Shown here: piece after piece, positions 1,890 to 58,196 of the stretch
Layout of the letters: each line of letters starts with the position of its first letter
Position numbering within the stretch: the first letter of the stretch is position 1
NCBI RefSeq assembly: GCF_000022085.1
Contig: NC_011894.1
Span: 646,501-710,500, forward strand
Direction of reading: 5' to 3'
Length of the DNA stretch: 64,000 nt
From: Methylobacterium nodulans ORS 2060
Lineage (GTDB): Bacteria; Pseudomonadota; Alphaproteobacteria; Rhizobiales; Beijerinckiaceae
Made by a program: the position numbers and the translations under genes
The notes under the pieces: generated by a model
What the model saw: only the letters and a program-made list of their open reading frames with translations
Database searches by the model: none
What the model was told of the DNA's origin: nothing

Positions 1890-2097
1890 CGCCGACCTCG
1901 ACGGTCACGACGATCTCGGTGCAGTACGGCGCACAGTAGGCGGGGCCGGGATTGTCCGGGCTGATCACGCCGCCATTGACGTCGGACGCCGGGCTGATCA
2001 GGTCGAAGTCGCTCACGACGATCGCGCCATCGCTCCCGGGCACGCAGGCGGCGCCTGCGAGCATCTGGCGCTTTTGCGCGGCGCCCGGTCTGTGCTA

Positions 2098-35800: not shown

Positions 35801-37316
35801 CGAGGGGGCCTTTGCTCGTCCTAGGCCTCCAAAATGTCAGGGTCGAGCGCCTTTAGAGCGGGCTGGACCTTTTCCCACGGCGGTTCCGGCTGTCCCTCTT
35901 TGAACATGCCAGTTGCCAAGAGCGTCGCCTCGAACTCCACTTGACCTTCTCGCAAGTTATCATCCGGAGACAAATAGCGGGACTTGAAGTAGATAGGCGT
36001 CGACTGCGGCTCACGTCGATCCATGCTCACCTTCTGGCGGCCGAGGTCGACCCGCACGCGCTCAATGATGAACGGGACCGGCTTCTCGATATCGTCGCAT
36101 ACAACCATCGTGACGCGCGGCCCCTCCAGGTCGATGTCGACGAAGTCCGCAGCGTCCACGCCGCCTTGCAGCACTTCGGCACAGCCGACCATTACGCGCA
36201 GGCGAGCGGGAAGACAGGGCAGAGCCGACGACCGGAAGCGGAAGGACTTCTCCGCTCGGATGCCACCGAGCCTCATGGCGGCGGCGGCCTCGGCGTCTGC
36301 CCGCACGCCCGAGCGGTCACCCGCCGCGAAGAGCAGTCTTCGCCCCTCCTCCAGGCCCGCAGCGTGCGTGCGGAAGAAGGCGCGTATGTCCGCTTGGATA
36401 GACTGGGGTAGCGTCTTGTACTTGGGTGCGCCCGGAACCTGAGTCAGTGCTAAATGGACCAGAAGGTCCTGACGACGAGACTGAGACGACTGTGCGAATT
36501 CCGCGTCGCCGGCCAGGTCTTCACCAAGAAGTTCCAAGGCGCGTTGGGTGCCGACCCGCTGGGTCGAGAGAGAGGCAAGTTCTTCGCCGGGTATCTCTTC
36601 CGCCTCGGGGAGTCTCCCGAGTCGCAGAGCCAGCGCGCGCAGTCTGTGCAGCAGCGGTGCGATCCGCTCCCGCAGCGGGCTGCGTTCGACGATCGCGCGC
36701 TCTTTACGCATTCGCGGCGCCCCAACGGGCCGTTCGCGCAACGGCGGTCGCGGCAGGGCCCCGGACACCAGGCTCCCCGATCGGCGGCGCAACAGGACCT
36801 CCTGTTCGAGGTCCTTGTCCCGGAACGCGACGACGATTCCGGGAGCTAGGGAGAGCGGAGCCTCGCCGGTCGCGCCCTGGACAACAGCGCGAAGCTCCTG
36901 CTGATCGAAGTACTTCTGGAACGTGCCGCGCGAGGTCACGAAGCCGTCGCGGTAAGGGCGGTGACCGGCAGTGGATGCCTTACCCAGCGACATCACTGCC
37001 ACGCACAGGGCCCGCTGCGCGAAACCCCACGCCGCCTTCAGGGTTTCGACCCGTTCGCGCAGGTCCTCGATCACATTGATGACGAAGCCGAGGTTCACGA
37101 CGTCTGCCGGCTTACGCGGGCCCGATGGCGCATGGTGAGGGTCCCAACCGAATGCGTCAAACCCCTGCGAAGTCAGCGCCTCGACGTCTGCGCCCTGCCC
37201 ACAGCCGTAGTCGAACACACTGCGATCGGCGGCAATGATGCCGTAGCGCATGAGAAGCTGCATCGGCTGCGACAGGTCGCGTCGGAAGATCGCGGTCTTG
37301 TGCCGCTCGGTCTCTA

Positions 37317-38374
37317 GAGCGGGGTCCGAGCGGGTTGAAACCGTGGTGATGGCAACGCGTTGGCCGGTCCCCGGGGGGGCGGCTCAACGGAGGTGGCCCA
37401 TGCCCTCAGCTTTGTCTGTCGACCTGCGCCAGCGCGTCGTCTCGGCCGTTGCAGAAGGCGCCTCCTGCCATCAGGCCGCCGCGCGCTTCGGGGTCAGCGT
37501 GGCCAGCGTCAGCCGCTGGTCCAGGCAGCAGGAGGGCCAGGGAGATGTCACGCCCAAGCCCATGGGCGGCGACCAGCGCTCGCAGCGCATCGAGGCTCAT
37601 GCCGAGCTCATCCTGCAGACCTACCAAGCCCACCCGCAGAGCTTCCTGCATGAGCTCTGCGAGACGCTCCAGGAGCAAGGCGTTCCGGTCAGCCGCAGTA
37701 GCCTGTCGCGCTTCTTCGCCCGGCACCGCATCACGCGGAAAAAAGGGCGACGTACGCAGCTGAGCAGGAGCGGGAGGATGTAAAGGCGGCTCGTGAGGCG
37801 TGGTTTGCCGGCCAGCTTGAGCTGGATCCGGAGCGACTGGTGTTCCTGGATGAGACCGCCGCCACCACCAGCATGGTCCGCCGCTACGGCTGGGCCCCGC
37901 GCGGCGAGCGTTGCCGCCTCGCGGCACCCGCAGGGCACTGGAAAACCACCACTGTGATTGCCGGGCTGCGCACGAGCGGGCCTGACGCGATCGCTCTGCT
38001 GGACGGCCCTGTGACGGGCGAACGCTTCCGCGCCTACGTGACCGACACCCTGGTCCCCACCCTGAGACCCGGCGACACCGTGATCCTGGACAATCTGGGC
38101 GCTCACAAGGTGGCCGGCGTGCGCGAGGCGATCGCGGCAACCGGGGCCCGGCTGCTTTATCTTCCTCCGTACTCACCTGAGTTCAACCCGATTGAGCAGG
38201 CCTTCGCCAAGCTGAAAGCGCTGTTGCGCAGGGCGGCGGCCCGCAGTGTCAGTGAACTCTGGGCGGCGATCCACCAAGCCTTCAAATGCTTCTCGCCGGC
38301 TGAGTGCCGCAACTACTTCACAGCTGCTGGATACGAGGATGATGCTTACGCTTCAACCTGATCGGGAGCGGCTC
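37317..38374 (+). mobile_element. IS630-family element, copy 2
   Basis: 1,058 bp with TA at 37315-37316 and 38375-38376. Same ends and length as copy 1 at 2098-3155, in the opposite orientation, and no difference was noticed in the encoded frames. Two such alike copies 34 kb apart in inverse orientation could support recombination and inversion of the segment between them. Confidence 0.92.
37400..38361 (+). CDS. IS630-family transposase (two frames, -1 frameshift)
   Basis: Start at the ATG at 37400 with GGAGGTGG upstream. Frame A (37400-37783) is the HTH half. The A6 run at 37739-37744 before GGG is the probable -1 slip site. The shifted frame reads KKRATYAAEQEREDVKAARE into LDPERLVFLDET and on to 38361. 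DDE residues in FLDET, ILDNLGAH and FNPIEQ. Same protein as copy 1. Confidence 0.87.
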
Positions 38375-41300
38375 TAGGTGCTCCTCGTCGGCTCGCAGGA
38401 GCCTCCCGTTTCTCAGCACTAGGCCGGCAGCCTCGATACGCGCGTTCCAGGCGGCGCGCGTGCCAATCTTATTCGTTTCGTCAAACAGCCCATGCTCCTC
38501 CGCCGCAGCCGTTAGTGCCCTGAACTTGGGGAGCCTCGGATCGTCAGGTGGAAGCAGGAGTTCCTTCCGGTGCAGGATCGGCGGGTTCGCGCGGCCCGCG
38601 TAGTCCGTCGACGCCACGGCCCCGGACTTCAAGTCGACCTTCGTCGAGCGCAGCAGTGCAGGGAAGTCGACATCGAACGATTCGTAGAGCAGCAGGGAGA
38701 TCGTAGACCTCTCGATCTTCGCGACGCTCCATTCCGCCGAGGGGACACGGGCCTCCGCCTCGGCGACGCGCTCCCGCTCCCCACCGAGGAGCCCGACCGC
38801 TTCGCGATGGATATATAGGGCTCCCCCAACCCGCTTGCCCACCGCGTCGCTCGCGCGGGCTCGCTTCGCCACGGCCTATCTCCCCTTCCAGTAGTTCCCG
38901 ATCGCCAGCGCCAGATCGAACGCCAGGTCGTCGTCGAGGAACGGGGCCTGACCGTATATCAGGCTCTTCTGGTTGGCCGGCTGCTCATTTGCGAGCTTCG
39001 CCGCAAAATGGCCCTTGCCCAACAGCATCTCGGCGCCGCCCTCTTCGAGGATGATGCGCGAGTTGGTCGCCGAGGACACGCGCAGGCAGACCTTATTGTT
39101 CATGTTCGCCTTGATCGGCCCTGGCAGCGCATCCTTGTCCGGCCGTTGCAGGATCAGGAAGAGGTGGATGCCCGCCGCGCGTGCCTTCATGCCGAGACGG
39201 GCGACATAGCTGCCGACTGCCTCACGGTAATCCTTGTTGTCCTTGTCCGCCATCCAGTCACCTAGCTCGTCGTGGAAGACGTAGATGCGCGGCATTCGCT
39301 CTTCGGGAGGCAGCTTCGCGTTATAACGGTCGATGTTGGACGTTGTCTGGGTGATTCTTGCGTACCTCTCCTCCATCTCCTCGACGAGTTGCTTGAGCGT
39401 CTCCGTCGCGTCGGGCTGTGTCGTGACTAGGCCACCATCAAGGTGGGGCAGGCTCCCAATCCAGGGATAGTCGCCACCGCTCTTCGGGTCGATCATCCGG
39501 ATGCGTGCGTTCCGCGGCGAGTTCGTTGAGCAGATGTCCAAGATGATGTTCCGGGTCAGCACGCCCTTGCCGCTGCCGGTCTCGCCCGCAATTAGCGTGT
39601 GCGGCCCGTGCTGCGGCTGTCCATTGAATCCGTTCGCCAGGTTCAGATAGACCATGTTTCCGTCGCTCTCCCGCTCCCCGAGCAGGAACGACGCGTTCAC
39701 CTCGGGAATGGTGTCCGCGAACTTCCGCCTCAGCCAGACATCAGGGAGGTCGGGGAACGCGCGTTCCGGACGCGCCACCATGACCACTACCTCGCCTGGG
39801 GCGGGATGGACCGCGATTACCGCAAGGCTGTGCGAGGTGAGCAGCACTTCCTGCTTCTTTTCAACGTCGGCTACGGTCAGCCGGTCGCTTCCCTTGAAGC
39901 GCACCAGGGCCGCGTTCGGCGTTAGGCGTTCGCCGAGCACCTCAGCGTCGAAGCCGTAGTTCCTCAGGGCAGCCCTTAGCTTCTTGCGGGCCGCGGCTAA
40001 CCACTCCAAGCCATCTGACTCGGCCTTCGGAGACGCGTGGTCCATCAGGAACTCGATGACCGGACCGGGAAGAGCGCCGGGGGCGCCTAGGACCGGCGCT
40101 GACGTCGGCGGCGCCTGCAGAGCCGGACGCTCGGGAGTGGGCGTCCCCGTCGGTGGTGCGGGCTGGGGAGCGGGCTCAGCCTGCGGCGGCTCGTCAAGGA
40201 ACCCGCCGGTCGGTGCGGCGCCGCCGCCGCTGATAGAAGGCGGCAGGACGAGGGCCGGCGGAAGGACCGTTTCACCCCTTACGAAGCGTATCAGCTTCGC
40301 GACGTCGCTCCGGTCGAAGAGGACCTCCCTCTGCTCCTCGGCCTTGCCGACGGCGGCCTCGCCCCACCCGTCGCGGCGGTCGTGCGTAAAGACGAGCGCC
40401 ACGCCGCAGATGCGGAGGATCGCACCATCAGAGCGCAAGGCGGCGGCCCATGCTGCGGCGTCCCGGCCGCCGACTGGCCCATCGAATGAGCCCTGTTCTG
40501 CGATCAGGTCCGCTAGCCTGGACAGCCACGTCTGGCGGTTCAAGGCATCCTTGTCGAGGACAAGGCTGTCGCGGAAGTGGTCCGTCGTCGCTTTGAGCTG
40601 CGCAAGGGCGTCCTTCGCTTCCTGCGTCTCGGCGCTTTGGGCCACGAACTTGCTCTCGACGACGACCAGGTCAACGATCGGACGCCCATCCTCCTCGACT
40701 AGGCCGACGACGAGGATGTCCGCGCGCTTGCCGGGCGGGTGCCCCACGAGGTCCGCGAAGTCGTCGACGAGCAGCCACGCGACGGGCGTGGACCGGTCTT
40801 GCAGCGCCTTGGCGACAAGGGCCTGGCTGAGGACCAGGCCCACTAGCTCGTTGGCGTTCTGCTCGCTGCGTGCCGCGTGCAGCACGACTTTGCCCGAGAT
40901 GCGCGCTGCCTCGTCGACGAACAGCTTCGCCGCCGCTGACGCATCGGCGGCCGGGAGGTCGGCGATATGCCCGAGGATTTCCTCCAGGCGGTTCGTCAAC
41001 GTATGCTCGTGCTTGTTCGTAGAGACGATGACGCTGTGCCGCGTCCCCGGCTTCGCCACGAACCGGATCACACTGACCCCATTCGCGAGTAGAAGTTGCT
41101 TGTCCGCGATCGCGTCGAAGGTCACGACCCAGTTGCCGACTTTGTGAGCCTTCTCGATCACCTGGCCCACTCCTGCGTCATCAAACACAATCTCACGCAC
41201 TGGGGCGAAGCTGAAGAACTGATCGTCCTGCTCGTCCTGCTCCAGGTCGTGAACAAGATTCAGATAACTCTGGACCTCGGACGGCCGCTCATTCGCAACG

Positions 41301-43986
41301 AGGAAGACCTCGGTCTTGCGGGCACCGGTCTCGAAGGGACGCCGCCTCGTCGACTGCTCGCCGTCCGGCTCACAGAAGTCGGCGTAGGTGACGTCCACCG
41401 GATCGACACGGCGCCAGGACGTCTTGGCACTGCGCGCGATGACGTCGTGCAGGAATACGATGTCCACGCGACTCCTGCCTTCCGACTCCTGCGCGACGGT
41501 CTCCGCATCGAGGAACCCAACCCTGAGGCGCGACAGGAACGACCGCGCGGCTTCGCTCGCGATCGCGCCGTCGAGTTCGCGGCTGATGGCGACGTTCTGC
41601 TCGGCGTAGATCTGGCGCAGCCTCTGCTGGTCCGTGTGGGTCAAGATCAGGTCGCAACGCAGGTCCGGCTCCGTCTCGATCTTGCGCGCGAGGCGCTCCG
41701 CGATACGCGAAGGCAGCTCACGATTATCCGCATTGAACAAGGACACCGAGAAATTGGCTCGCTCGTGGGGCTGGAGCGACAGGTACTCCGCCGCCATCGC
41801 CATCAGCTCGGAGGCGGCCTCGCGCGAGTAGCCGTCGAAGGCGGTGTTGCCGCCCTCGCCCGTGTTCGGGGACTCGAGCAGGCTGAACTCAAACGATGTG
41901 TCGGTCTCCACGAACAGGCGCCGCGTCGGCCCGTCCATCCGGACGGCGACCGCTGGGTGCCACGGCGTTTCGAGCCCTTCCGCCACCCCCGTCGCGAACC
42001 GGCGAATACTGGCTTCCGACGCGCCGTTCGGAGCGAGGATCCTGCGCACCGCAGCTACGACGCGCCGCGTTTTGGCGGCCGCCTCAGCCAGCCGGAAAGG
42101 ATGCCACGGCGTAATGATGGCGACCTCGGGTCGGTCCTCCGACAGGGCGGTCCCGATGAGAAGGATCGGTTCCCACAGCTCCTTCCGGCACAAGTCCTGG
42201 CGCGCAGTCTTGCGTAGCAGCTCGAGGAGCGCACCGAACCTGTGCGCCTGCTCGAACAGCGTGTCGGAAACGAGGCCGTCGCCCGAGACCATCGCGGAGA
42301 TTGCCTCGGCGTAGTACTTCCGGAACTCGGCCAGCGACATCCGGATGGCCTCCACGACGTCCGAGGGGAGAAAGCTCGACACCTTCACCAAGCCCTGCTC
42401 GAATAGCGCGGCAGCGTTCAGCGACGGCTGGTTAGTGTCGAAAAGCATGCCGTCCGGATTGCCGTGCACGTCCTGGATTGAGCCTCGGTTTCCGAGGTCG
42501 ATGCCTTCCTCGACGATCCTCTCGGACCGTTGGGCGCGAGCGAACCGTCCGATCGGCAGGTGTCCCATTGGCGCGGCGGCCGCGATGTCCGCAAGATTGG
42601 CACTGTAGGCAACCCCCATGCAATTCGCCGGTATGGACCAGATCAGTTGCCGGCTGTGGGCAGCCTTGAGGGCATCCGGTTTCGGGCGCCCGTCCTGGAA
42701 GTCCGCGGCGCCGAGGAGGTGCAAGTCGACCTTGAACTGCCTTGCGCTCGGCCCGGTTTTGGGCGATCCGTTGCCCGGTGTGCGCCCGGCCTCCCACAGG
42801 AGGCCGAAGTCGAGGATCACACCAGCTGGCGCTAGGGCCTTGTCGAGCCCCCGGAACCGGTCCCGCAGGTACGCCGAAATCTCCGAGTTCTTGTTCTTCC
42901 AATACGACTGAGCGTCCGCATTCGCCAGTCGCGCGAAAACCTTAGGCTCGGACGGTACGACATCGGCCTCGAGGACGAGGTCGCGGATGGCGGAAAGGAG
43001 GCCGACTAGGAGGTCCGAGTGTTCATTGCTCGAACTGAAGACGTACGACTCCCAGCGCTTCAGAAGCTTCTTGTCCTCGGCGAACTCGTCGCGATGGTCG
43101 TGGAAAAAGACCTTCTCGTCTTCCTCAGGGCCATTCTCCTCGCTGACGATCGTTTCTAGCAATTCCTTTTCGGCCTTTGACAGGGCGCGCGGAAAGTTCG
43201 CGTTGAAGAATTCGAGCGTCTCATCGCCGAGGCTCTTTCTCCTCGCCTTCTTTGGCGACTTGAAGACCGGCTCAACCTTGTCCCAGGAGAGCTGGACCAC
43301 CGCCTCTTGGGTCGGGCGCCACTCGGAGCCCGGCTCGATCGCCCGGTCGGCAACGAGGCTGCGCAGCGTCTCAGCATCGGTCTCCTCTAGCCGTCCCGAT
43401 GTTGCGAGTCTATCGATCTGCTCCTTGATCGTCTTGCGGTCTAGTTCAACGCCGCGATCGTTGACGAGGTGCACGACGTCGTCGGTCTGCTTCTGCAGGT
43501 CCCTGAGTATCTCCGCCCACTTGGCCGGCGTGCGAAGCCGGCCCTTCTGGCCCGGCTCCTTGAAGCGCCCCGCGCAACGGCAGATTCTCAGCGCAGGAAG
43601 CGACTCGTCGATCGCGCGCTCAAGAGGTTTATCGCCCCGGTTCTTGTTCAGCGTTAGGAAGAAGTTCGCGAGCATGCGGAGGCCGCCGACCACCACGCCC
43701 GACGCGTGGAGTCCGACGACGAAGTTCCTCAGTTCGGCCCTTTGCCGTCCCCCGAGGTCCGCGAGGTTCGAGCAGGCTTCTATCCAGAGGTCCGGATCGG
43801 TCGCGAGCTTCTCGAATGAGATGGCGGAGATTTCGCCTGCCGTCGCCCCGACGACATCGAGGTCCCGCGTCGGCGTCGCAAATACTATGCAGCCGCCGCC
43901 AGCGCCTCGCGGCATGTTGCGGAAATCGGTCGTGTTCCACGTAGTCCTCAGGCGATCGTCGAGGGTCCCGTCGTCCAGCGATATGT

Positions 43987-45405
43987 GTAATTACCCACGC
44001 CCGTGGCGGTAGGATCAGGCGCGGATGATGTTGAGGATAGTGGCGAAGGTGCCGGCCCCCGAGAGGCGGGCCGTGTCGACGACGGTGCGCACGTCCGCCT
44101 CACCCGCGGCCGCCCACATGGCCCGATAGCCGTTCGTCACCTTCCGCTGCACCACTGCCGGGCGCAGCGCGCGCTCGCAAGCGTTGTTGGTGACCGCCAC
44201 GCGGCCGGGATGGTCGAGGAAGACCAGGAGCTGGTCGCGGGCTCGGCCGATCTTGGCTTGCAGAGCGCGGGTCAGATCGCAGCGGCTTGGTGCAGCGAGG
44301 ATGGCGGACAGCTGCCGATCCAGGGCCCGGCGCTTGGCCGAGAGCGTCGAGGCGGCCAGGTCGGTGACGCGCTCGGCCAGGCTGAACACGCTTCCCAGCC
44401 AGAGTTGTAGGCGCAGCGGCACGGGGTCGTCGCTGACCTCGACCGCGTAGGCGACGTCACGGGCCAAATGCGCCAGGCAGGTCTGGTGATGCTCACCGTG
44501 GCCCTGCTGGGCGGTGTAGCGGTCCGACAGCCACACGGACGGCCGGTGTCCGTCCATCATCGCGTGCACCACCGCGGCGGCCCGCGTCGAGGCCGCGTGA
44601 TGAACGACCGCTGCGTCCGAGCGGAACACCCAATGATACGAGTTGCTGCCCTCGATGCGCACGCCGGTCTCATCCGAGGCGACTACCGCGGCCCGGCGCA
44701 GCGCCGAGACCGCAGCTTCGCGATCGGCACGGAACTGCCTCTGGGCCCGACGCAGCAGGTTCATCAGCCCGCCCTGGCTCAAGGTGAGCCCGAACAGGTC
44801 CGACAACGCGGCCTGCAGCCGCTCGTAGGACAGAGCCTGGAAGGTCTTCAGATACACCGCCACCGCGTGCAGGCGCGGGCCGAACGGCGTGCCGCGTGCG
44901 GCCTGCGGCACTGGAGCGACGACGCGCGTGCCACAAGCCGGGCAGCGGACGGCGAGCCGTTGATGCTGGGTGACCATCGGTGCCACCGCGGGCAAGTCGA
45001 TCTGCTCGCACACGCTGACGATCTCGGCCGGCAGATCCGGAGCCAGAACACCTCCGCAGCAGGGGCAGTGACCCGGGCGGTGAGCGACGATCTCGTCGGG
45101 ATCGGGGCTGAGCGTTCGGCTATGTCCCTCGTGACCCGGCTTGGCGCCGCCGGGCTTGGCCTGCTCGCGCCGCTCCTTGCGGTCGGTCGAGGGCGGCTTG
45201 GACGAGGTGCGCGAGGTCTTCTCGGGGCGCTGCAGCCGCAGCACCAGCTCGATCAGCTCCTGCTTGCTCAGGCGTTCCAGCTCGCTGCGGCCCATCCCAC
45301 GAGGGAATCAGCCAAATCGCCTCCCGGCAAGAGGCGCGGCGAACTCCCTCTAGCGGCCTCGCTTGTGGGTCACGCCGCGCTCGCGCGCACCCCGTGGGTA
45401 ATTAC
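43987..45405 (-). mobile_element. IS66-family element (single-ORF type)
   Basis: 1,419 bp. Terminal inverted repeat GTAATTACCCACG at both ends and an 8-bp direct repeat CGATATGT outside (43979-43986 and 45406-45413), the IS66 duplication length. Only the tnpC-like gene is present, no tnpA/tnpB, as in the ISBst12 subgroup. Inserted in sspH. Confidence 0.93.
44015..45295 (-). CDS. IS66-family transposase
   Basis: 426 residues. N-terminal leucine-rich coiled coil (ELERLSKQELIELVLRLQR), then the disordered TSRTSSKPPSTDRKERREQ stretch and a zinc ribbon (GHCPCCGGVL ... VRCPACGTRV) typical of IS66 TnpC. The catalytic region has VVASDETGVRIEG, HHQTCLAHLARD and TNNACERALRP. The subgroup lacks the helper genes. 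Confidence 0.93.
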   Translation of the reverse strand: MGRSELERLSKQELIELVLRLQRPEKTSRTSSKPPSTDRKERREQAKPGGAKPGHEGHSRTLSPDPDEIVAHRPGHCPCCGGVLAPDLPAEIVSVCEQIDLPAVAPMVTQHQRLAVRCPACGTRVVAPVPQAARGTPFGPRLHAVAVYLKTFQALSYERLQAALSDLFGLTLSQGGLMNLLRRAQRQFRADREAAVSALRRAAVVASDETGVRIEGSNSYHWVFRSDAAVVHHAASTRAAAVVHAMMDGHRPSVWLSDRYTAQQGHGEHHQTCLAHLARDVAYAVEVSDDPVPLRLQLWLGSVFSLAERVTDLAASTLSAKRRALDRQLSAILAAPSRCDLTRALQAKIGRARDQLLVFLDHPGRVAVTNNACERALRPAVVQRKVTNGYRAMWAAAGEADVRTVVDTARLSGAGTFATILNIIRA

Positions 45406-45623
45406 CGATATGTGCACCCTGACCATGGAGTCTCGGACCTCAGCGTCGATCCTCCTAGCGATGGCGCACGTCAAGGTCTTATCCAGGCCGACTATCGAGA
45501 ACAGGCTCTTGACGCCAGGGTTCGCCTCAAGCGCAGCGGCTACGCGCGCGACGGCCACCCTAGTCGCGAGATCCTCGACCTCGGGCAGTTTCTTGTCGAG
45601 GGGCTCCAACTTAAACGCGACGT

Positions 45624-47240: not shown

Positions 47241-47241
47241 C

Positions 47242-49041
47242 TCAGCTCTCCAGCGCCACCACGCCGACCTTGTCAGCATTCAGCCGTCCCTCCGGGGACA
47301 GTCGCACGATCTGGATATCCTCGACTCCCTCGGAGTCGATCAGTCCGCGTTTCTCGAGCGACGCTATGACCCTGAGCCGGAACTGGCGCAGCTCCTCAGA
47401 GCACTGCCGCGAGAAGCTGCCCGGCAAGCTGCCGGCTTCCACCCGGAGCAGGTACTCGAACAGGAGCGGCTGTAGCGCGTTCGCCTCGACGACGTCCTTG
47501 CCCTCGCGGACGATCATCCGCAGCGTGCGGTGCGGGCCCAGTGCGTCGAAGTCAAGGTGGACCCTAACGGCCCGCCGCTCCCCAACCGGCATCTCTATGT
47601 CTAAGACCTGTCCGATGCGGCTCTGCGCGTTGGCGGCCGGCGCCGCAAACCACAAAGAGGCGCCGTCATCGCACATCATGCCGGTGTAGGTCCGGTTCAG
47701 GCCAATTGCGAGACGGTTCCTGATCCGCGCGTCTACTTGGCCGCGTCGCAGTGAGTCAGCGAACATGAGATATTCCCCACCGTGCATAAACACGGTCAGG
47801 CGCCAGGGGTCGAGGTCACTCTGGGACAGCGCCTGGGGCACCGGCAGCCTGAAGAACAAGCGTCTCCGCTGCTGCTCGATCGCGTGCCTGAACTCGTCCT
47901 GGTCGATGGCTTCACCGCGGCGGTACTGGCGCCGCATCGGTTCGAACAGGGCCTCTCCGAACAGTGGATCGTCCGCCACGAATTGAGAATGCGCTGCCTG
48001 TGGTTCCGCGTCGATTAGGACCCCGTCGATCAGGTTGTTGGTCTCGCGCCCAACCCCGAATGCAGCGAGGATCCCGAACGCGCGATAGGTGGACCGATCG
48101 GCCTCCAGGTTCAGGCCAAAGACGTTGTCGTACGGGTTCGACGATATCAGCTTGCCCTCACTTACGAGCGCCGCCGCAGACGAGCAGCTCATGAGCTTCG
48201 ACCGCAGGCCCCGCACCCCGAGCAACGTGTTGACGATCACTAGCAGCACCTGCCGGATCGGGAGATGCATGTCGTTGTCGGCGGCGATCCGAATCATGTC
48301 GCGCATTCGCGCGCGGAGTCCGACGGAACTCTTCTGCTTGAGGAGGTCCCGATTCCGCCGTATCGGGCAGCTAAGCGCGCTGCCACATGAAGCGCAACCT
48401 CCCCAACCTTCGTGATCGACAACGGCGTCGAGCAGTTTATCAAAAGTCTCGTCGTGCGGCTGCCGGCTCAGGTTCCATATGTCCAGCCGCAGCCCGGGCA
48501 CGCGACTGGCATCGTTCTTGAGCATATTGCGGATAGCCTCTTCGGCAGCCTTTCCGCTATCGTCCGCCTCCGCGTAACGGCGGAGTGTCCGCAGCAACTG
48601 GCCATCGTTAGCGGCGACGAGGTAGACCGTGCCGCACTCGCCGTACGCACTCCTACAGAGACCTCTGACGATCTCGTCCTGCTCCGGCTTCTCATTGTAC
48701 TGGCTGAGGTCCTTGATGATAACCAGCCGCCGCCCGTCGCGCAGTGTCTTGTCGATGCGACAGTCGGTCTTCCGCCATTCCTCCTCGGTACCTACGAGGG
48801 CAGTGAATACTTTTCGACAGTGCCAGGTCTTGCCATCGCCCGCGGTGCCTGTGAGGATCACCGAGCGCGGCTGCTCGCCCATGAGGGCGGACAGAATCCG
48901 ATCCACCTTGTCCGTGTTTACCGAGATCGGGCTGACCTCGAACCGCCGTGCGCCTTCGAGCACGTGTTCGTCGTACATGGATTGCGCCGCGGGTGTGGGG
49001 CCGTAGGTCGCGAGAAAATCGACAAGAGCCTTGGTTGACAT
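47242..49041 (-). CDS. sspF: SspF/DptF-like P-loop ATPase
   Basis: 599 residues. Walker A GTAGDGKT at 65-72 preceded by SVILT, then LVIIKDLSQYN, and a Cys cluster CASCGSALSCPIRR that may bind zinc. These match the DptF family of PT-dependent restriction proteins. The C-terminus IVRLSPEGRLNADKVGVVALES is intact. It starts 8 bases after the SspD stop. Confidence 0.8.
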   Translation of the reverse strand: MSTKALVDFLATYGPTPAAQSMYDEHVLEGARRFEVSPISVNTDKVDRILSALMGEQPRSVILTGTAGDGKTWHCRKVFTALVGTEEEWRKTDCRIDKTLRDGRRLVIIKDLSQYNEKPEQDEIVRGLCRSAYGECGTVYLVAANDGQLLRTLRRYAEADDSGKAAEEAIRNMLKNDASRVPGLRLDIWNLSRQPHDETFDKLLDAVVDHEGWGGCASCGSALSCPIRRNRDLLKQKSSVGLRARMRDMIRIAADNDMHLPIRQVLLVIVNTLLGVRGLRSKLMSCSSAAALVSEGKLISSNPYDNVFGLNLEADRSTYRAFGILAAFGVGRETNNLIDGVLIDAEPQAAHSQFVADDPLFGEALFEPMRRQYRRGEAIDQDEFRHAIEQQRRRLFFRLPVPQALSQSDLDPWRLTVFMHGGEYLMFADSLRRGQVDARIRNRLAIGLNRTYTGMMCDDGASLWFAAPAANAQSRIGQVLDIEMPVGERRAVRVHLDFDALGPHRTLRMIVREGKDVVEANALQPLLFEYLLRVEAGSLPGSFSRQCSEELRQFRLRVIASLEKRGLIDSEGVEDIQIVRLSPEGRLNADKVGVVALES

Positions 49042-49049
49042 CAGTCGCC

Positions 49050-49862
49050 TCAGAGATGGCAGATCGCGCAGCCGTCCTCGTCCGACTTCGCCTTGAGGGT
49101 GCGGCGCGACATCTTCTCAACGTCGTCGAGGGAGCGTCCGTCGACCCACGTGTAGTCACGCCCGCTGTGCGTCTCGTAGGTCTTCGCTCTCTCGAACAGG
49201 TTGGGATGGCGCTCCTTGAGCCCCTGCCATTCAGCGATCTGCTGGTAGAAACAGAAATAGCATCCCGACCGGCTGCGCCACTCGTAGTAGCGCGGAAGAC
49301 CGAGACCACTGTCGTCGAGCAATTTCTGTACGTCAGCAAATCCGAGGCCGTCGTCTTTGAAGGGATAGACTGGCACGATATTCGGCTCCTCCGATAGAAG
49401 GACGGGCTTGCCGCTACCTGTGTAGCCTTGTCGGTTCTCATCGGCGCGGATTGCAATATAGGAGTAGGCCGGCGCGCTGCCGATGTACTTTTCGTAGGGA
49501 TGGATCTTGAGCATCCGCGTGCACCAGCGCGACCGCGGGCTTGGCAAGTAGCCGTTGAAGTGGTCGTAAAGCACTACATCGAACGCTGAGCGCCCGGGCT
49601 TGGCGCGGACATCGAGCATTTCTAGCGCCGAGATGCGTGCGATTGCCTGTCCCAGCACGTGCTCCAGGCGGTCAAGATACTCGTAGGTCTCCGGCAGCTC
49701 TGCACCAGTGTCGCAGAAGACAAACTCGAATTCGAGATTCGGATAAGTCTGCGCGAGGTAGATTGACATCGCTGTTGAGTCCTTGCCGCCCGACAGCGGC
49801 ACGATATGTCGCCGCGACGCGTCCGCTGCGGCCTCTTTCATCTTTGCTGGTGTTACCGTCAT
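49050..49862 (-). CDS. sspD: SspD: PP-loop ATP pyrophosphatase/Fe-S sulfur transferase
   Basis: 270 residues, PAPS-reductase-like. PP-loop SGGKDS at 24-29 activates the DNA backbone with ATP, and cysteines at 114 (RWCTR), 201 and 204 (GCYFC), and 265 and 268 (GCAICHL) would hold the Fe-S cluster that passes sulfur from SspA. DndC/SspD signature FCDTGAELPETYEYLDRLE. The start ATG overlaps the SspC C-terminal fragment's stop as ATGA. Appears intact. Confidence 0.88.
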   Translation of the reverse strand: MTVTPAKMKEAAADASRRHIVPLSGGKDSTAMSIYLAQTYPNLEFEFVFCDTGAELPETYEYLDRLEHVLGQAIARISALEMLDVRAKPGRSAFDVVLYDHFNGYLPSPRSRWCTRMLKIHPYEKYIGSAPAYSYIAIRADENRQGYTGSGKPVLLSEEPNIVPVYPFKDDGLGFADVQKLLDDSGLGLPRYYEWRSRSGCYFCFYQQIAEWQGLKERHPNLFERAKTYETHSGRDYTWVDGRSLDDVEKMSRRTLKAKSDEDGCAICHL

Positions 49863-50163
49863 CGCTTCGCTCCGGCCACAGCTCGCCGCGGCTCCCCGTT
49901 TTCCTCAATGCGCGCGAGTACCGCCTGAAGCTCCGCGATCCGCTCTCGGATCACAGGTGCCAAACGCGGCGACGGCGCGTCTGTCGCGAGGGCCGCGTCC
50001 TCGATCCGTGTGCGGCACTCGCGCAACAACATCGCGTACTGTCCGGCCGTCCCGTCCTGCCACTGCTCGACACCCCGTTGCAGGAGGATCGAACTGACCG
50101 CGCGCGCCAGGCTCGCGGGCGTGTAGCGCCCGTTCACCGTGTCCCTCGCCGTCCTGAGAGTCC

Positions 50164-51592
50164 TTCTCTGATTGGGGTCGTTTAGGTCAAGCTGCTCGTT
50201 GTGGTTTCTCCGGCTTGTGTCGCCCCGTGGGTCACACGCTTCTCTTCGCGGTCGGCGCTTGGCCGCCGCATGATGGGGTCAGGAGGGCGAGGCGTCTCAA
50301 TCTGTTTCACGACCTTGCGGGTTTGCACCCGCAGGTTCTGGACTCTCAACGAGATCGCCAGGCCCATCGTCCCCACGGGAACGATCCGGTTCACCCTTTC
50401 GGGTTCATGCGTGGTGTTTTGCCCTCCTGTTTCGCGGTGACGGCGTCATCCTGCGAGCGTGGCACCCTCTGCGGGCTCCTTACCCCAGCGGAACGCGGTG
50501 CCGTCGCTCCACATGCGATGGAGGATGACGGCGAGCTTGCGGGCGACCGCGACGCGGGCGCGGGCCATGCCGCGACGCCTGGCGATCTTCATCCCCCAGG
50601 CGCGCAGGCTCGACCATTTCTGGCTCCGCACCAGCAGCGTATGCGCCGCCTCGTAGAGCGCGGTGCGCGCGAGTTCGTCGCCGCAACGGCTGATCTTGCC
50701 CTGGATGTCGGTCTCGCCGGACTGGTAGCGCGCCGGCGTCAGACCGAGATGGGCGCCGACGTCGCGCGAGCGCCTGAACCGGTCGGGCCGGTCGATCGTC
50801 GCCCGGAAGGCAAGCGCGGTGATGGGGCCGACGCCCGGCACGCTCATCAGCCGCTGGCAGACCGCCTCTTTCTTGACGAGATCCATGACCTGCTTCGTCA
50901 AGCCGGCGAGTGCGGTCAGCATGCTGGCCAGCACCTCCAGGAGCGGTTCGACGAGCTGCGTCATCAGGGGCACGCCCTCGGCCAGTTCGCGTACGCGGCC
51001 GGCGAAGGCTGCACGGCCAGGCGTGCCGAGCTTGAGCCCGGCTTCGCGCAGGATCCCCCGCACCACGTTCTCGATCGAACGCATCTCGTTGAGCACCGTG
51101 CGGCGCGCCACCAGCAGCGAACGCCACAGCCGGCACTGACGGCTCTTGACATGGACCTGCCGGAACCAGCCCGTCCGCATGATCTGCGCCAGGGCGCGTG
51201 CGTCGTTGCGGTCGGTCTTGTTGGGCATCGTCTTCATCGCGGCATTGGCCTGGCGCGTCTCGATGCAGATCGCCGGCAAGCCCGCCTCGCGCAGGCCGTC
51301 GTGCAGCCAGGCCGTCAGCGAGCACGCTTCCAGGCCGATGCGCTCCAGGGGCAGGCCGATCTGGTTCAGCGCCTGCACCAGCGCGCCAGGCTCACTCGCC
51401 GCCCGCGCCTCCCGCACGATCCGACCCGTATCGTCGACAACGCAGATCGCGGTCTCTTCCAGCGAAACGTCCAGTCCGGCATAATACTTCACGGCTGCTC
51501 CTTCCCGATGCTTGTGGCCGCTCAACACGGACCACGTTCCAACATCCCGAACGGAGCAGCCACCCTCGGCTAAGACCCCAATCACCCCATCT
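50164..51592 (-). mobile_element. IS110-family element (IS1111-like)
   Basis: About 1.43 kb. Subterminal inverted repeats TGATTGGGGTC near 50169 and GACCCCAATCA near 51575, as in the IS1111 subgroup; exact ends are inferred from the restored sspC frame and the start of the IS5 repeat at 51593. No target duplication is seen, normal for this family. It abuts the IS5 element. Confidence 0.75.
50446..51492 (-). CDS. IS110-family transposase
   Basis: 348 residues from the GTG at 51492 (KYYAGLDVSLEETAICVVDD). The RuvC-like DEDD domain starts with GLDVSLEET and includes NKTDRNDARALAQIMR. The C-terminal Transposase_20 half has LMSVPGVGPITALAFRATI and GDELARTALYEAAHTLL, the serine-containing helix-hairpin-helix region. 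Intact. Confidence 0.9.
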   Translation of the reverse strand: MKYYAGLDVSLEETAICVVDDTGRIVREARAASEPGALVQALNQIGLPLERIGLEACSLTAWLHDGLREAGLPAICIETRQANAAMKTMPNKTDRNDARALAQIMRTGWFRQVHVKSRQCRLWRSLLVARRTVLNEMRSIENVVRGILREAGLKLGTPGRAAFAGRVRELAEGVPLMTQLVEPLLEVLASMLTALAGLTKQVMDLVKKEAVCQRLMSVPGVGPITALAFRATIDRPDRFRRSRDVGAHLGLTPARYQSGETDIQGKISRCGDELARTALYEAAHTLLVRSQKWSSLRAWGMKIARRRGMARARVAVARKLAVILHRMWSDGTAFRWGKEPAEGATLAG

Positions 51593-52504
51593 GTTGGGAA
51601 AGGGTGGCCAAGAGAAAATGCGGGATGATAGAGCATGTCTGCTCGTCTCGAATGGATGAATGGCCCCTCCTTGGTCTGGACCGCTGCAAATCGGCCGCGC
51701 TATGATCGTCGCAGCCAGAGATACCCGAGTGATATGACGAACGACGAGTGGCTCACCCTGGAGCCACTGCTTCCTGTCGCGGAGGGGATCGGGCGGCCCC
51801 GGACCTATCCTATTCGGGACATCATGAACGGCATCCGCTACGTGCAGCGGTACGGCATTCCCTGGGATGCCATGCCAAAGGATCTGCCGCCCGCCAGTCT
51901 CTGCTACGATTACTGGCGGTTGCTCACCGATGGCGGCCACATGGACCGGATCAACCATCATCTCGTGATGAGGGATCGTGAGAAGTCCGGGAAAGAAGCC
52001 AGTCCAACGCTGGCGATTGTGGATGCCCAGGCGGTGAAGTGTGACGCCCCGCAAGGCGAGCGCGGGTACGATGCGGCGAAACAAGTGCTGGGGCGCAAGC
52101 GGCATCTGGCGGTCGACAGCGACGGACGCCTGCTTGCGGTGATGATCACTCCGGCCAACGTTCAGGATCAAGAGGGCGGGATCCCGCTCGTCAAGCGCTT
52201 GGTTCGTCTCTGTCCCTGGATCAAGACAATCGTGGTGGACGGTGGGTACAAGGCCCGTTTCATTGAGGCGGTTCAGGCTGGCACGAGCCGTGTCGTGGAA
52301 GTGGTCGTACGGCCGCAATTTGGGAAGGGCTTTGTGCTTCTGCCGAAACGATGGCGGATTGAGCAAAGCATCGGCGCTCTCACGGTGTCGCGCCGTCTCA
52401 AGCTGGATTACGATACGCTGCTTCACATCTCGGCGGCGGCTATGCTTTTCGCCTCTATAACTCGGCTTCTCGCGTCAATCACTATGAAATGACCCTTTCC
52501 CAAC
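51593..52504 (+). mobile_element. IS5-family element
   Basis: 912 bp with 13-bp terminal inverted repeats GTTGGGAAAGGGT. It is directly against the IS110 element on its left and the sspC coding sequence on its right. No target duplication remains because the other flank is now IS110 sequence, so one element probably inserted at the end of the other. Confidence 0.8.
51635..52492 (+). CDS. IS5-family transposase
   Basis: 285 residues; the start could also be the ATG at 51656. Opening MTNDEWLTLEPLLPVAEGIG (from ~34) and RNGIRYVQRYG-like NGIRYVQRYGIPWDAMP are typical. DDE core: LAIVDAQAV, KTIVVDGGYKARF and RRWRIEQSIGALTVSRRLK-type ending (WRIEQSIGALTVSRRLKL). Stops inside the right terminal repeat region. 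Confidence 0.9.
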   Translation: MSARLEWMNGPSLVWTAANRPRYDRRSQRYPSDMTNDEWLTLEPLLPVAEGIGRPRTYPIRDIMNGIRYVQRYGIPWDAMPKDLPPASLCYDYWRLLTDGGHMDRINHHLVMRDREKSGKEASPTLAIVDAQAVKCDAPQGERGYDAAKQVLGRKRHLAVDSDGRLLAVMITPANVQDQEGGIPLVKRLVRLCPWIKTIVVDGGYKARFIEAVQAGTSRVVEVVVRPQFGKGFVLLPKRWRIEQSIGALTVSRRLKLDYDTLLHISAAAMLFASITRLLASITMK

Positions 52505-55408
52505 GGACTCTGAGGATCGCCTTGTCGGTCAGGCGCAGGTCGTTGCGAGTCAGGAGTGAGTCCACGTCGAGGCAGGCGACCCAGGACTGCATCCCCTGTA
52601 CGGCATTGTCGTTTCCGATCCGGAACGCCTCGCCGAGGACGCGCACCGCCTCGTCCAGGTAGCCTTCCACTAGTCCGTCGATCTCATCACGCGCGGCCTC
52701 CACCACCGCTACGACGGCGTCGAAGTCGCGGCGCCCGCCGCCGAACAGGTCGGGCAGCACGCGCAGGAAGAAGGCAGCGGGATCGGATGCCTCAGCGGCT
52801 GCACGCAGGAGCGCCTGTGCGCCCTGTGACAGGCGATGCGAGCGCCGCGCTCCGTTGGGCAGGCCGGCCCACCATTGGGCGAACGCGTCGTGCGCAAAGC
52901 GCAGGGCCTCGACCTCCTCATCATTCTTGGCGTGCGCGAACACGTAGGCGAGTTCGTCGAGGTACAGCAGCGTCCCGTCGTCGGCCTCGTGCACCTCCAC
53001 CTCGTGGCGCTCGGGGTCGGCGAACATGCGGTTCGCGTCGAAGCCGAGGATATCGGCGACGTAGGCGCCGTCGGAGCGCAGCGACACGCATCGCGCGAAA
53101 GCCTGGTACCCTGCCATCACTATCACGGGGATCACGCCCGAGGGCGCGCCGATTGGCGGACCGGTCAGCACCGCGACGAGCCCTGACAACTTCTTCGGTT
53201 CGGCGGACGGCTCCTGAAAGAACGACTTCGCCGTCGTCCAAGCCAGCTTCAGACCCGGATCCTGCACCTTCTCGGGTTCCGCGAACCCCCACAAGCCGGC
53301 GGGACCCTCCCTGTGGAGGCCGGTGTTGGCGAGCACCGTACGGTACACCGATGCCTCGACGGACGTATCGTCTCGGCCGTAGCCCATCCAGGGCTTCTTC
53401 GCCGACTCCGTCATACGCATCAGGAGGCGCACGCGTGCGGTGTTCATCTGCTTCGAGACGCGCTGCCGCATAAGTTGGTCGTTCGCGATGAGCGGCGTCT
53501 TCGGATACCAGGCACCCATCATTTCCGAGGCGACGATCGTTGCAGGCCGCTCGCCTGTGACTGGGAGTTCGGCGCCGGCGTAGTACCACTTCGCGTCTGT
53601 CGGACGGTCGCTCGTCAGCCGGTGCACGGCGAGATCGAGTTGGCGGCGCGCGACTGACAGCAGTTCGTCGATCTCAACCGAGACAAGCGGGTCCTCCGCT
53701 AACAGATTGTCGTCGGCCCTAAGGGCCTCGAGACAAGCGACCTCCAGCGCGGCGTCAACCACCCGCAGCGGCCGCGAAGGGATGACGTAGAGCGTTCGCT
53801 CGCGGGGGGACGCCAGTGCAGCGCCCCGCGCTTTGGCGATCTCGACTTCGGATTCAGCGAGGACGTAGAGCACATCGCCCCACGGTCCCACCGGTGCGGC
53901 ATCCGGGGCGGATCCCTCCGCCTGCAGCTCCACCTCCTCCGAAAGGAGGTAGCGCCCACAGAGGTAGCGGGCCGTTCCGTATTCGATGTTGTGCCGCGTC
54001 GCGCGCACGATCGGCGCGGGACGGCGCTCCGCGAGGAAGGCTACGGCGTCGAACGCGTCGGCGCGCTTCGCGCGCTCCTCCGCCAGGCGGCTGGCGACGT
54101 CCACGTCAATGCCGTGCCACACTGACACATCGTCGACGACGCACCGGTGCAGGAGCAGCTTTCGCCCGATCAGCGCGTTGATTGCCGACGCGGCCTCCGC
54201 GAGCGGGATGCCTCGCGACGCAACCGCCACCTCCAATGCAGCGCGGGACAGTTTGCGGCGTTCGCCATCCGTCCCGAGTTGCAGCAGGCATGCCGCGGCG
54301 AGCGCCTCGCGCTCGACGTCGCTCTCGGCCTTGGCCCTCGCGCTCTCCGTCTCAATCCAGCGCTTGTGAGCGCCGCCGGCGCCAACATCGGAACGCATCG
54401 CGTCCGAGAACCCCCGGTAGAGCTCCTCGAAGCCGACGGGGCGTGACAGATCAACCTCTTCGACAAACGAGAATAGGCTCCGTTCGTTCTGGCCTATCCT
54501 CGCCGCTAAGCGCGGCAGACTTTGCAGCGCGCCGGCCGAGAGCGGCCAGGCCCCCTCGACGAGGTCTGCCACCTCGTTGACGTCGGCCGCGCCATCGAAC
54601 CAACCTGCCTCCATCGCGCGCTGGACGACAGCCCCTTTCAGCCGGGAATCCAGCGGCGGCGTCCCGCTTTCGCGGCGCTCACCGATGCGGTCGACGAGGA
54701 GCCGGTAGAGTTCTCGGCTGTCCTCGACGAACCGCAGCGTCCGGAAGCGCCCCTCGATCTTGCGCCACTCATTGCGCGACGTCTGGTTGAGACCGCCCGC
54801 GTAGGCCAACAGGTTCTGGTGCGAGAGTAGGGTGAGGCTCGCGGTAGGCGCCTCCGCGCGCGCTGCCCACTCTGCGAGGCGCTGAACGAAGTCCAGCTCG
54901 CGGGAGCGGCCTTCGGCGACAAGGCTTTCGAGGTGGCGTCCGAACTCGTCCCAGACTATCGCGAGATGCGCCGCGCTTGGGAGATTTGCAGACGCCCAGT
55001 TCAGCACCCGCTCCAGCGTCGAGAGTTTCTCGGGTGCGCCGAGCGCCGAGCCAATCTCGCGCGCGAGGTCTGCGATGTGGCCGGACAAGATGATGGCGCG
55101 CCCTTGGCCGCGCGCGGCGAAACGCTGCGATAATCTCTGGTGAGCCTCCGGGTCAACGCGCTGCACCTTCGGGAGGATACATTTGACGGCGTCGCGGGAG
55201 CGTGGGTCATTGATCGCGATCAGCGCTCCCACCCCCGCAGCGAGCGACTTGCCGCTGCCATAGGCCGCGATGACGAGCGTCGGATCGCGGCCAAGCACCG
55301 CCTCGATAATGGGAAGGGACCGGGTTGTCGGTTGGTAGTGGGAAAGCCTGTCAGGGACCTCGATGTCGGATTCAAGGTTCACTGCCCGGAAGAAGCTTCG
55401 GGCCTTGC

Positions 55409-56305
55409 TCATGCCTGCCTCTCAATCCGGCGGTAATGCCGCTCCAGCCACCAAGCCGGCGGCCTGTTCGGCACACTGAGGCGGCGCTCGGCGCCAAGTA
55501 GGACGTAAGTGACCCCGGATTTTGCGTAGATGCGGGCGCCCTCCTGCGCGGCGCGGTCAATCATCTCCGGACTGAGACCGAACAAGCGTCCAGGGCCGTG
55601 CCTGCGAGAAGCGAGGTCCATCACGGACAAGGTTTCCTCGCCATTGCTGCACGATGACGCTGCAGCGAGGACAGCCTCAATAGGCACCGGATCAACCGGC
55701 CTGACCTTCTCGAAGCGTCGCGTGTCGCGATGGTAGGTTACAAGGCGCAGTTCAATGAGCGGACAAATTGTTCCGTCCTCAGGATCCTGAGCCTCGGTTG
55801 GGTTGTAGGCGTAGCTCGCAAGGACGTTTGCGACATCGCGCTGAGTGGACTGTAGCGTCGGCGTCTTGGTCGCCCGCTGCTTTGCGTACCTCAGAAACGC
55901 CTCGACGCAGGCCGCGCGCTCGAAGCTGCGTTCGAGATAGTCATTGAAGAACCAAGCCGGCGCCGAGCCGTCGCGGCTCGCGATCGCAAGCTGCAAAAAC
56001 CAGAGCGTCCCCGGGTATTCCACGTACGCATCGTTCGCGTCGATGACGCGACCGATGTCGGACATATTCAGGCGCCGGGACCGCCCCTCCATAACGACGT
56101 CTGCAAGCCCGGATGCCTCAAGCCAGTACGCCAGAGAACGTACCATGCGGCTTCCGAGCCCGAGTTTGTCCGCAGTCGCTGTATCCGCAGCGAACCCCTC
56201 GGGCGAGCCGAGACGTTCAAGCCCCTTCCCGAGCCAGCCGTGCCGGATGGTGAAGGTTTCGTGGCGCCCGAACTCCATCCTGATGGGCTTCAGCGTCTGG
56301 TTCAT
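55409..56305 (-). CDS. sspB: SspB: DUF4007 nickase-type protein
   Basis: 298 residues. RMEFGRHETFTIRHGWLGKG at the start is the DUF4007 hallmark. DUF4007 proteins next to SspA/C/D are SspB, reported as a DNA-nicking component that opens a strand for sulfur insertion. Further blocks: GSRMVRSLAYWLEASGLAD and YPGTLWFLQLAIASRDGSAP. ATGA overlaps on both sides show a tight operon. Appears intact. Confidence 0.87.
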   Translation of the reverse strand: MNQTLKPIRMEFGRHETFTIRHGWLGKGLERLGSPEGFAADTATADKLGLGSRMVRSLAYWLEASGLADVVMEGRSRRLNMSDIGRVIDANDAYVEYPGTLWFLQLAIASRDGSAPAWFFNDYLERSFERAACVEAFLRYAKQRATKTPTLQSTQRDVANVLASYAYNPTEAQDPEDGTICPLIELRLVTYHRDTRRFEKVRPVDPVPIEAVLAAASSCSNGEETLSVMDLASRRHGPGRLFGLSPEMIDRAAQEGARIYAKSGVTYVLLGAERRLSVPNRPPAWWLERHYRRIERQA

Positions 56306-57465
56306 CTCGCGATTGCCTTGGCCAGTTCGGCCGCGATGTCCGCGGCTTCAACGGCCTCTTCGATTTTGTTGAGGATCGAAAACGAGAACCGGAGGCTGGA
56401 GAACGCCTCTTTTGTGGAGAGCCCCATAGCCGTCAGCGTCGATGAAGGTTCGGGGCGTCCGCTCGAACAGGCTGAGCCCTGCGACGCCATTACGCCTCTT
56501 GCGTCGAGAAGCGCGAGAAGTTGCATGCCATCAACATCGGCGAAGCGGACATTTGAGGTATTCGGCACGCGTGGCGCCACAGCGCCGTTGAAAGTGACCC
56601 GATTTCCGAGATGCTGCCTCAAGCGCCCTTCGAACTCGTCTCGAATCGCCCTGAGCGTCACAGATGCAGCCAGAAACTCCTCTGTACGACGCTCTGCAGC
56701 CACGCCGAAGCCTATGATGCCCGGCACGTTTTGCGTTCCTGACCGGAGACCGCGTTCTTGCCCTCCTCCGTAAAGTAGCGGCGACACGACCGCCTCTGAA
56801 TTGGCCAAAATCAACGCGCCTGTGCCTTGAGGGCCATGAAGCTTGTGGCCGGAGAACGAGATCGCGTCGGCACGCAATTTATTCAGTTCAAGGCGAACTC
56901 GGCCTACGGCTTGCGCCGCATCGAGCAGTATAAAAGCGCTGTCGTATGCCGACCTAAACTCTGTAACGATCTCTTCAACAGGTTGTATAACGCCCGTCTC
57001 GCTGTTCGCCGCCTGGATCGCGAGCACGTAAGTTTGTGCCCTTGGAGCAGCGCGGGCTCGGCGTCTAATGCCCTCCGCATCAATTCGTCCTGATGAATCG
57101 ACATCTAGCCAGATAACTCGGCCGTCCTGGTCCGCACGCTTCAAGGGCCTTGAGATTGAGGCATGCTCGCAACGCGCGGCAAAGAAGACTGCGGCGATTC
57201 TCTCATCAAAATGGCGCAGTACGGTGTTGTTGGCCTCGGTGCCGCCCGACACAAACGCGACATCCTCCGAAAATGCCCCGTCGATGAGCCGGCCCACCTG
57301 TTCGCGAGCCTTCTCTACCGCGCGGCGCGCCTCACCGCCGGCACGGTGGGCGCTCGCAGGATTACCTAAGCCCGACCGCATCGCCGACGCGACTGCCTCA
57401 ACAACCTCCGGGAGAGGCGCAGCTGTCGCGTTCGCGTCGACGTAGATTTTACGCTGAGTGCTCAT
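56302..57465 (-). CDS. sspA: SspA: cysteine desulfurase
   Basis: 387 residues, IscS/NifS-type PLP enzyme. YVDANATAAPLPEVVEAV at the start, PLP Lys208 in SFSGHKLHGPQG, His101 in CEHASI, and the persulfide Cys333 in SQGSACSSG. It takes sulfur from cysteine and hands it to SspD for DNA phosphorothioation. First gene of the operon, with two palindromes upstream. Appears complete. Confidence 0.9.
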   Translation of the reverse strand: MSTQRKIYVDANATAAPLPEVVEAVASAMRSGLGNPASAHRAGGEARRAVEKAREQVGRLIDGAFSEDVAFVSGGTEANNTVLRHFDERIAAVFFAARCEHASISRPLKRADQDGRVIWLDVDSSGRIDAEGIRRRARAAPRAQTYVLAIQAANSETGVIQPVEEIVTEFRSAYDSAFILLDAAQAVGRVRLELNKLRADAISFSGHKLHGPQGTGALILANSEAVVSPLLYGGGQERGLRSGTQNVPGIIGFGVAAERRTEEFLAASVTLRAIRDEFEGRLRQHLGNRVTFNGAVAPRVPNTSNVRFADVDGMQLLALLDARGVMASQGSACSSGRPEPSSTLTAMGLSTKEAFSSLRFSFSILNKIEEAVEAADIAAELAKAIAR

Positions 57466-58018: not shown

Positions 58019-58196
58019 GTGCGGAAGCACTGGAAGGATCGCTTGGTAATCAAGGGCCTGTTGCATCCAAAGGATGTGACTACGGCGCGGGAAGTTGGCG
58101 CGGACGGCGTCATTCTACCGAATCATGGAGGTCGCCAGCTGGACGGTGCAGTTTCGCCGATGCGGGCTCTCCCAGCCGCAGTGAAACTCGGACAAA
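58019..58196 (+). pseudogene. Fragment of an FMN-dependent hydroxy-acid dehydrogenase
   Basis: VRKHWKDRLVIKGLLHPKDV, GADGVILPNHGGRQLDGA and ALPAAVKLGQ are the C-terminal core of the lactate/glycolate oxidase family, with the catalytic His and Arg in NHGGRQLDG. Only about 59 codons remain; both ends are missing. The sequence changes abruptly to recombinase remnant near 58200, a break point. Confidence 0.7.

Follow-up and report, generated by a model that had tools for sequence, protein, structure and literature searches.

A phosphorothioation-type SspABCD-SspFGH operon with a methyltransferase gene in Methylobacterium nodulans, probably broken recently by four insertion sequences

The window analyzed here is a stretch of 64,000 nucleotides from the genome of Methylobacterium nodulans ORS 2060 (contig NC_011894.1, positions 646,501 to 710,500). 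Between positions 35821 and 57465 of the window, all on the minus strand, lie the genes of a DNA phosphorothioation (PT) modification and restriction system, SspABCD-SspFGH, together with the gene of a PT-associated methyltransferase. Such bacterial anti-phage systems introduce sulphur into DNA and attack DNA that lacks it. Scans of the operon proteins with Pfam, NCBIfam, and PADLOC profiles identified SspA, SspB, SspC, SspD, SspF, SspG, SspH, and the methyltransferase family TIGR04096, in the order sspA-B-C-D-F-G-H-methyltransferase, with the SspA, SspB, SspC, and SspD families adjacent and SspF, SspG, and SspH in sequence. Thus, the original prediction, made from the sequence alone, was right in recognizing eight gene families in one direction and in assigning them to this type of system. 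The operon was, however, also taken to be complete, and here the prediction fails: insertion sequences (ISs) that had been overlooked interrupt three of the eight genes. The locus comprises the following features:

56302..57465, minus strand: sspA, cysteine desulfurase, 387 amino acids (PADLOC SspA, 3.8e-95)
55409..56305, minus strand: sspB, DUF4007 protein, 298 amino acids (PF13182, E 5.8e-46; PADLOC SspB, 3.1e-61)
52511..55412, minus strand: 5' part of sspC, 967 codons and one base, P-loop AAYGSGKS (PADLOC SspC, 6.2e-126)
50155..52510: insert in sspC, an IS5-like element whose right end harbors a nested IS110, one TCA copy included
49859..50154, minus strand: 3' part of sspC, encoding the final ~98 residues, with a 4-bp overlap with the sspD start (tblastn to the SspC ends of five relatives)
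49050..49862, minus strand: sspD, PP-loop protein, 270 amino acids, SGGKDS motif (PADLOC SspD, 2.8e-90)
47242..49041, minus strand: sspF, 599 amino acids, Walker A motif GTAGDGKT (PADLOC SspF, 1.2e-173)
45624..47279, minus strand: sspG, 551 amino acids when the longest frame is taken (PADLOC SspG, 3.7e-148)
45406..45627, minus strand: 5' part of sspH, 74 codons (57% identity over 46 residues to the start of Microvirga ossetica SspH)
43979..45405, minus strand: IS66 in sspH, transposase at 44015-45295, one duplication copy included
38876..43978, minus strand: 3' part of sspH, FtsK-type P-loop GETGSGKG (PADLOC SspH, E 0, 1457 bits; FtsK_SpoIIIE, 1.2e-24)
38374..38872, minus strand: 5' part of the methyltransferase gene, N-terminal domain (TIGR04096, 75 bits; 46-52% identity to five relatives)
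37314..38373, plus strand: IS630 at CTAG in the methyltransferase gene, one duplication copy included
35821..37313, minus strand: 3' part of the methyltransferase gene, S-adenosylmethionine (SAM) and C-terminal domains (TIGR04096, 323 bits, cut-off 150)

The pyridoxal phosphate lysine and the cysteine that had been singled out in SspA are both present, Lys208 within SGHKLHG and Cys333 within GSACSSG. The gene proposed to encode a DUF4007 protein matches that family, so that the set belongs to the Ssp families and not to an unrelated system, and SspB additionally has a relative of solved structure (6juf, E 1.1e-13). The true start of sspG may lie further inside the frame because the model match starts only at residue 56. 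The proteins described as DptF-, DptG-, and DptH-like do form an FGH module, but what they match are the SspF, SspG, and SspH models: none of nine operon proteins matched DndF, DndG, or DndH in the scan with PADLOC, which we take to include models of these three, and the same scan of the nine proteins gave no match to PglZ or BrxL. By sequence, SspFGH is not homologous to DndFGH (PMC8092258). The joints of 4 bp or near zero that had been described for the whole operon exist as 4-bp overlaps at sspA/sspB and sspB/sspC, but not at the sites of the splits: the sspC and sspD frames are ~2.6 kb apart and enclose the IS5-like element and IS110, sspG and the long sspH frame are ~1.7 kb apart and enclose IS66, and the methyltransferase gene is itself divided. 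A test for uninterrupted genes failed in both modules as well as in the methyltransferase, with sspC, sspH, and the methyltransferase gene each split.

In sspC, the open frame of the 5' part continues for a few codons into an element that, from its ends and TNA duplications, we presume to be IS5-like; 13 of the 13 other fetched places have the same ends and TNA duplications, and the target duplicated at the sspC site is TCA. The transposase frame of this element lies on the plus strand inside 51635-52492, and the transposase of the nested IS110 occupies 50446-51636 on the minus strand. On the far side of the insert, tblastn aligns the 3' end with the terminal part of SspC from Microvirga ossetica at 58% identity, from Sphingomonas gentR at 51%, from Methylobacterium indicum at 49%, from Azospirillum at 39%, and from Falsirhodobacter at 32%, and the two pieces match consecutive stretches of the M. 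indicum protein, residues 5-973 and then 963-1056. A small open reading frame (ORF) at 50137-49859, considered as an additional operon gene, was rejected as such, being the sspC end that matches those of the relatives; the frame 52426-51392 (P0004) was likewise rejected, being antisense to the transposase frame by position. As a separate observation, the IS110 copies (window 50155-51600 and loci L036-L041) are located, in six of the six fetched cases, with ACAG on one side and, on the right, a flank with TCTNAG, which resembles the outer end of the IS5-like element together with its target; this IS110, of an RNA-guided family, seems to target the ends of IS5-like elements.

The sspH gene has its own start at 45627, overlapping the sspG stop by 4 bp, and is interrupted after codon 74 by IS66, which is flanked by an 8-bp target duplication, ACATATCG; duplications of 8 bp are also found at all seven other IS66 copies. 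The PADLOC SspH match of the 3' part begins at model position 104. The IS630 in the methyltransferase gene has CTAG on both sides, as do all eight fetched copies, the one in the window included. Here, too, the two pieces align consecutively with the M. indicum protein (10-169, then 167-584); the five relatives used for the N-terminal comparison come from loci with sspFGH in tandem. The frame 38176-37406 (P0012) was dismissed as a gene because, by position, it is antisense to the transposase frame. A second, identical IS630 copy is present at 2097-3160 of the window.

Joining the flanks at each of the three sites, with the elements and one duplication copy removed, yields a sequence that is stop-free in the gene frame and consists of whole codons: 3,198 bases for sspC, 5,325 for sspH, and 1,992 for the methyltransferase gene. 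The stop test is weak by itself because at least one wrong frame of the right flanks is also open; the case for the splits rests on the consecutive alignment to relatives. All the elements are nearly or fully identical to other copies in the genome: IS66 at 100% over 1,416 bp to seven other fetched copies, IS630 at 100% over 1,056 bp to seven, the IS5-like element at 100% over 915 bp to 13 other fetched places, and IS110 at 99.86-100% to five. This identity points to recent damage and, given that the remainder of every split gene is open, suggests that the operon was whole until recently.

Together, these findings make it probable that a once complete operon of the known PT modification and restriction kind was recently broken by four insertion sequences; as it stands, the locus represents a known system in damaged rather than complete form. 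In the scenario that we propose, the tightly packed sspA-B-C-D-F-G-H-methyltransferase operon would originally have stood complete, and four elements would then have entered, the IS5-like element and the nested IS110 in sspC, IS66 in sspH, and IS630 in the methyltransferase gene. Restriction would be lost through the cut in SspH at codon 74, and PT modification would be lost or weakened because SspC, which is itself required for PT, lacks its last ~98 of ~1065 residues. Breakage of sspC would be safe only with the restriction side broken, and both sides are broken here; the loss of sspC would thus have been tolerated because sspH is broken as well. SspBCD and a cysteine desulfurase place single-strand PT at CCA, with SspB acting as a nickase, whereas SspFGH, each component of which is required, damages DNA that does not carry the PT mark and, alone, without PT, harms the cell (PMC8092258). 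Most likely, the system is dead or, at best, capable of modification only. For this locus, the analysis keeps a PT defence system from being described, wrongly, as complete; instead, the system seems to have been caught shortly after its breakage, with the modification and restriction arms both hit.

Several points weigh against this interpretation. The short 5' piece of sspH matched a single relative, Microvirga ossetica (57% over 46 residues), and the automatic scan did not flag the sspH split because this piece is so short. The sspH frame in the plain ORF list, 43915-38876, begins at an internal ATG (43915), from which the 3' part could be translated. Furthermore, the loss of function is something that we infer, and SspC retains its P-loop and ~91% of its length. 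The last point, along with the open sspA, sspB, and sspD frames that match their families, would suit an operon in which the shortened SspC still works and PT marks are made with no SspFGH restriction, sspH being cut at codon 74. We consider this unlikely: the missing SspC end is conserved in the five relatives (32-58% identity), and sspD may go unexpressed because two elements, ~2.4 kb in total, separate it from the operon start. A complete and working SspABCD-SspFGH-methyltransferase operon, as originally predicted, deserves hardly any credence, even with all eight families present in the usual order, given that three of the eight genes are split and that deletion of sspH abolishes protection (PMC8092258). 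It is also quite improbable that the insertions, atypical of the species, arose solely in the culture used for sequencing. The identity or near-identity of the elements to other copies is consistent with very young insertions, and a single genome of the species was compared; however, four elements in three genes are much for a short time, and these elements are numerous across the whole genome. Thus, the recent disruption of a formerly complete operon remains our preferred reading.

The arrangement is not unique to the window. Plasmids of Microvirga ossetica (L008), Azospirillum sp. TSA2s (L009), Falsirhodobacter algicola (L011), Methylobacterium indicum (L012), Rhizobium leguminosarum (L058), and Sphingomonas sp. 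gentR (L010) carry sspA-B-C-D-F-G-H and the methyltransferase gene in one direction, so that the uninterrupted operon exists in relatives, including Methylobacterium. The frames are open across the whole operon in L008, L009, L011, L012, and L058; in the Sphingomonas operon, the methyltransferase is natively encoded by two overlapping genes. These six operons contain the same gene set as that in the window, with SspD 56-72% identical to the window SspD, but their genes are free of insertion sequences, in contrast to the interrupted sspC, sspH, and methyltransferase gene of M. nodulans. In four of the six, the methyltransferase gene follows sspH after 0-50 bp, and in R. leguminosarum and M. ossetica after ~0.6-0.9 kb, with a small extra ORF between the two genes in M. 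ossetica. The intact relatives hence represent an operon set with a methyltransferase after sspH, the role of which can be tested by a single deletion.

The plasmid survey covered 26 of the 33 plasmid records with SspG; those set aside were two equal in length to fetched ones (Agrobacterium, Sphingopyxis), two from Rhizobium strains close to one already covered, a further plasmid of Sphingobium xenophagum, another Sinorhizobium americanum, and Agrobacterium sp. T29. Counted by record, the methyltransferase is also found on 8 of the 33. In the fetched loci, lesions affect sspF in L013 (IS5) and in L063 (beside IS6100), sspH in L067, and both sspD and sspH in L018. Taking the window and the 26 plasmid loci together, 5 of 27 have a lesion in FGH genes and 2 of 27 in ABCD genes, both of the latter also with an FGH lesion; in this count, L063 and L067 are closely related, and sequencing errors may be present in L018. 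Preferential damage of the restriction genes, which would fit the harm done by free SspFGH, was not upheld, the numbers being too small. In L013 (11296-14016) and L063 (12343-13950), sspF is broken at an insertion sequence with sspABCD still open. The sspH genes of Microvirga ossetica (L008) and Agrobacterium K224 (L016) are annotated as short, which was rejected as a sign of lesions, their frames being open. The automatic scan also flagged the two-gene methyltransferase of L010 and single stops in L009 sspG (residue 522 of 530) and L019 sspA, both of which we read as gene ends. In L062, the fetched stretch lacks sspABCD, and SspD is encoded elsewhere on the plasmid; sspA or sspA/B are lost at the edge of the fetched stretch in L061 and L065, and no sspA was seen in L017.

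On genome contigs, we compared the best 80 of at least 548 loci found by the methyltransferase, many of which end at a contig edge; because of how they were found, these loci are silent on how often the methyltransferase accompanies SspG. Within this set, sspH lies at most 1.2 kb before the methyltransferase gene on the same strand in 11 loci, including that of Methylobacterium phyllostachyos (L074). Any FGH gene is present in 14 loci, 22 have sspB, sspC, or sspD and no FGH gene, and 44 have neither by the thresholds applied; a desulfurase is present in 22 of the 44. A tree was built from 38 SspG proteins, with locus labels (tandem and others) assigned by hand from the locus survey; in it, 16 tandem loci and L114, where the methyltransferase is nearby, form one branch (support 100/99); L092 and L115, tandem in the 80-locus count, are absent from this tree, their SspG rows being too short. 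Among the plasmid loci, which were found by SspG and not by the methyltransferase, the methyltransferase stands behind sspH in all six in the branch versus 2 of the 20 outside it, where it was counted anywhere in the fetched flanks (Fisher p 1.2e-4, uncorrected for kinship). The SspD tree gives a similar, not identical, grouping, with a 17-row branch (100/100) of 15 tandem loci plus L079 and L126, which carry sspABCD and the methyltransferase with no FGH within the fetched stretch. Two further loci can be mentioned here. A Rhodobacteraceae SC52 plasmid (L073:10933-19416) has sspABCD and the methyltransferase, no FGH, amid insertion sequences, and a metagenome bin of Stygiobacter (Ignavibacteriota; L076) has sspF-G-H-methyltransferase inside the mostly alphaproteobacterial SspG branch, reflecting either cross-phylum transfer or a misbinned contig.

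The family TIGR04096 already carries the name 'DNA phosphorothioation-associated' in the NCBI library, and our literature search turned up this name in one paper, in a gene table. The [DNS]PP[YFW] motif of DNA amino-methylases is absent from the SAM domain in 36 of 36 relatives, and fold comparison gave METTL6/Trm9-type and small-molecule enzymes as the best matches. For the N-terminal domain (window 38374-38872; L074:9995-10492), of which the C-terminus may hold a duplicate, the prediction has high confidence; the domain has an invariant P-x-L-H-R-K-E in 34 sequences, and no fold among solved structures matched it. Tentatively, and with the odds against it, the methyltransferase might be an invariable eighth component of a separate SspABCD-SspFGH subtype, with the PT mark itself or the PT enzymes, and not a DNA base, as its target; if so, the published picture of SspFGH lacks one part for this subtype. 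Of the two arms, the modification side is the one that it more likely served, as suggested by L073, L079, L126, and the 22 of 80 loci in which sspABCD or sspB/C/D occur with no FGH. A branch-wide link of the methyltransferase with sspH was not found in the literature searched, with subscription papers mostly outside the search; under the same limit, no paper was found on Methylobacterium nodulans and phosphorothioation together.

The original prediction held SspABCD with FGH to be described from few hosts; this is not so, since PMC8092258 counts 196 strains, 40 of them Rhizobiales. The Vibrio anguillarum FF-93 system (PMC8092258) has the same modification and restriction families as the window and an FGH module of identical gene order next to the modification genes; in contrast, its sspC and sspH are intact and its desulfurase is IscS, whereas three genes are broken in M. 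nodulans, and a methyltransferase gene, present in the window, is not mentioned in the text portions compared. In Rhodococcus qingshengii RL1, TIGR04096 stands beside dndABCDE (PMC8416521), unlike the window, where the same family stands beside Ssp genes. Type 4 BREX (PMC12839542) has SspB-, SspC-, and SspD-like parts in common with the window operon; however, the window SspC scores 420 bits against SspC and 187 against BrxC, with neither PglZ nor BrxL among the nine proteins.

The M. nodulans genome searched (8,839,022 bases in 8 contigs) contains one SspD, one DUF4007, and no DndC match, and thus gave no sign of a second PT system of these kinds. In the genus, 4 of 111 genomes have SspD matches stronger than E 1e-80, and 26 of 111 at E 0.001, the other 22 (E 1e-16 or weaker) being probably other PP-loop enzymes; SspG has matches in 5 of the 149 relatives searched, the own genome counted and one match weak. 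This patchy spread suggests horizontal gain. Upstream of sspA, the window contains an IS1182 (58019-59838) preceded by a fragment of an FMN-dependent dehydrogenase, and a DUF927 protein is encoded at 29526-30950, close to a region at 32-36 kb in which G+C drops to about 54-59% and which may be the edge of an acquired island.

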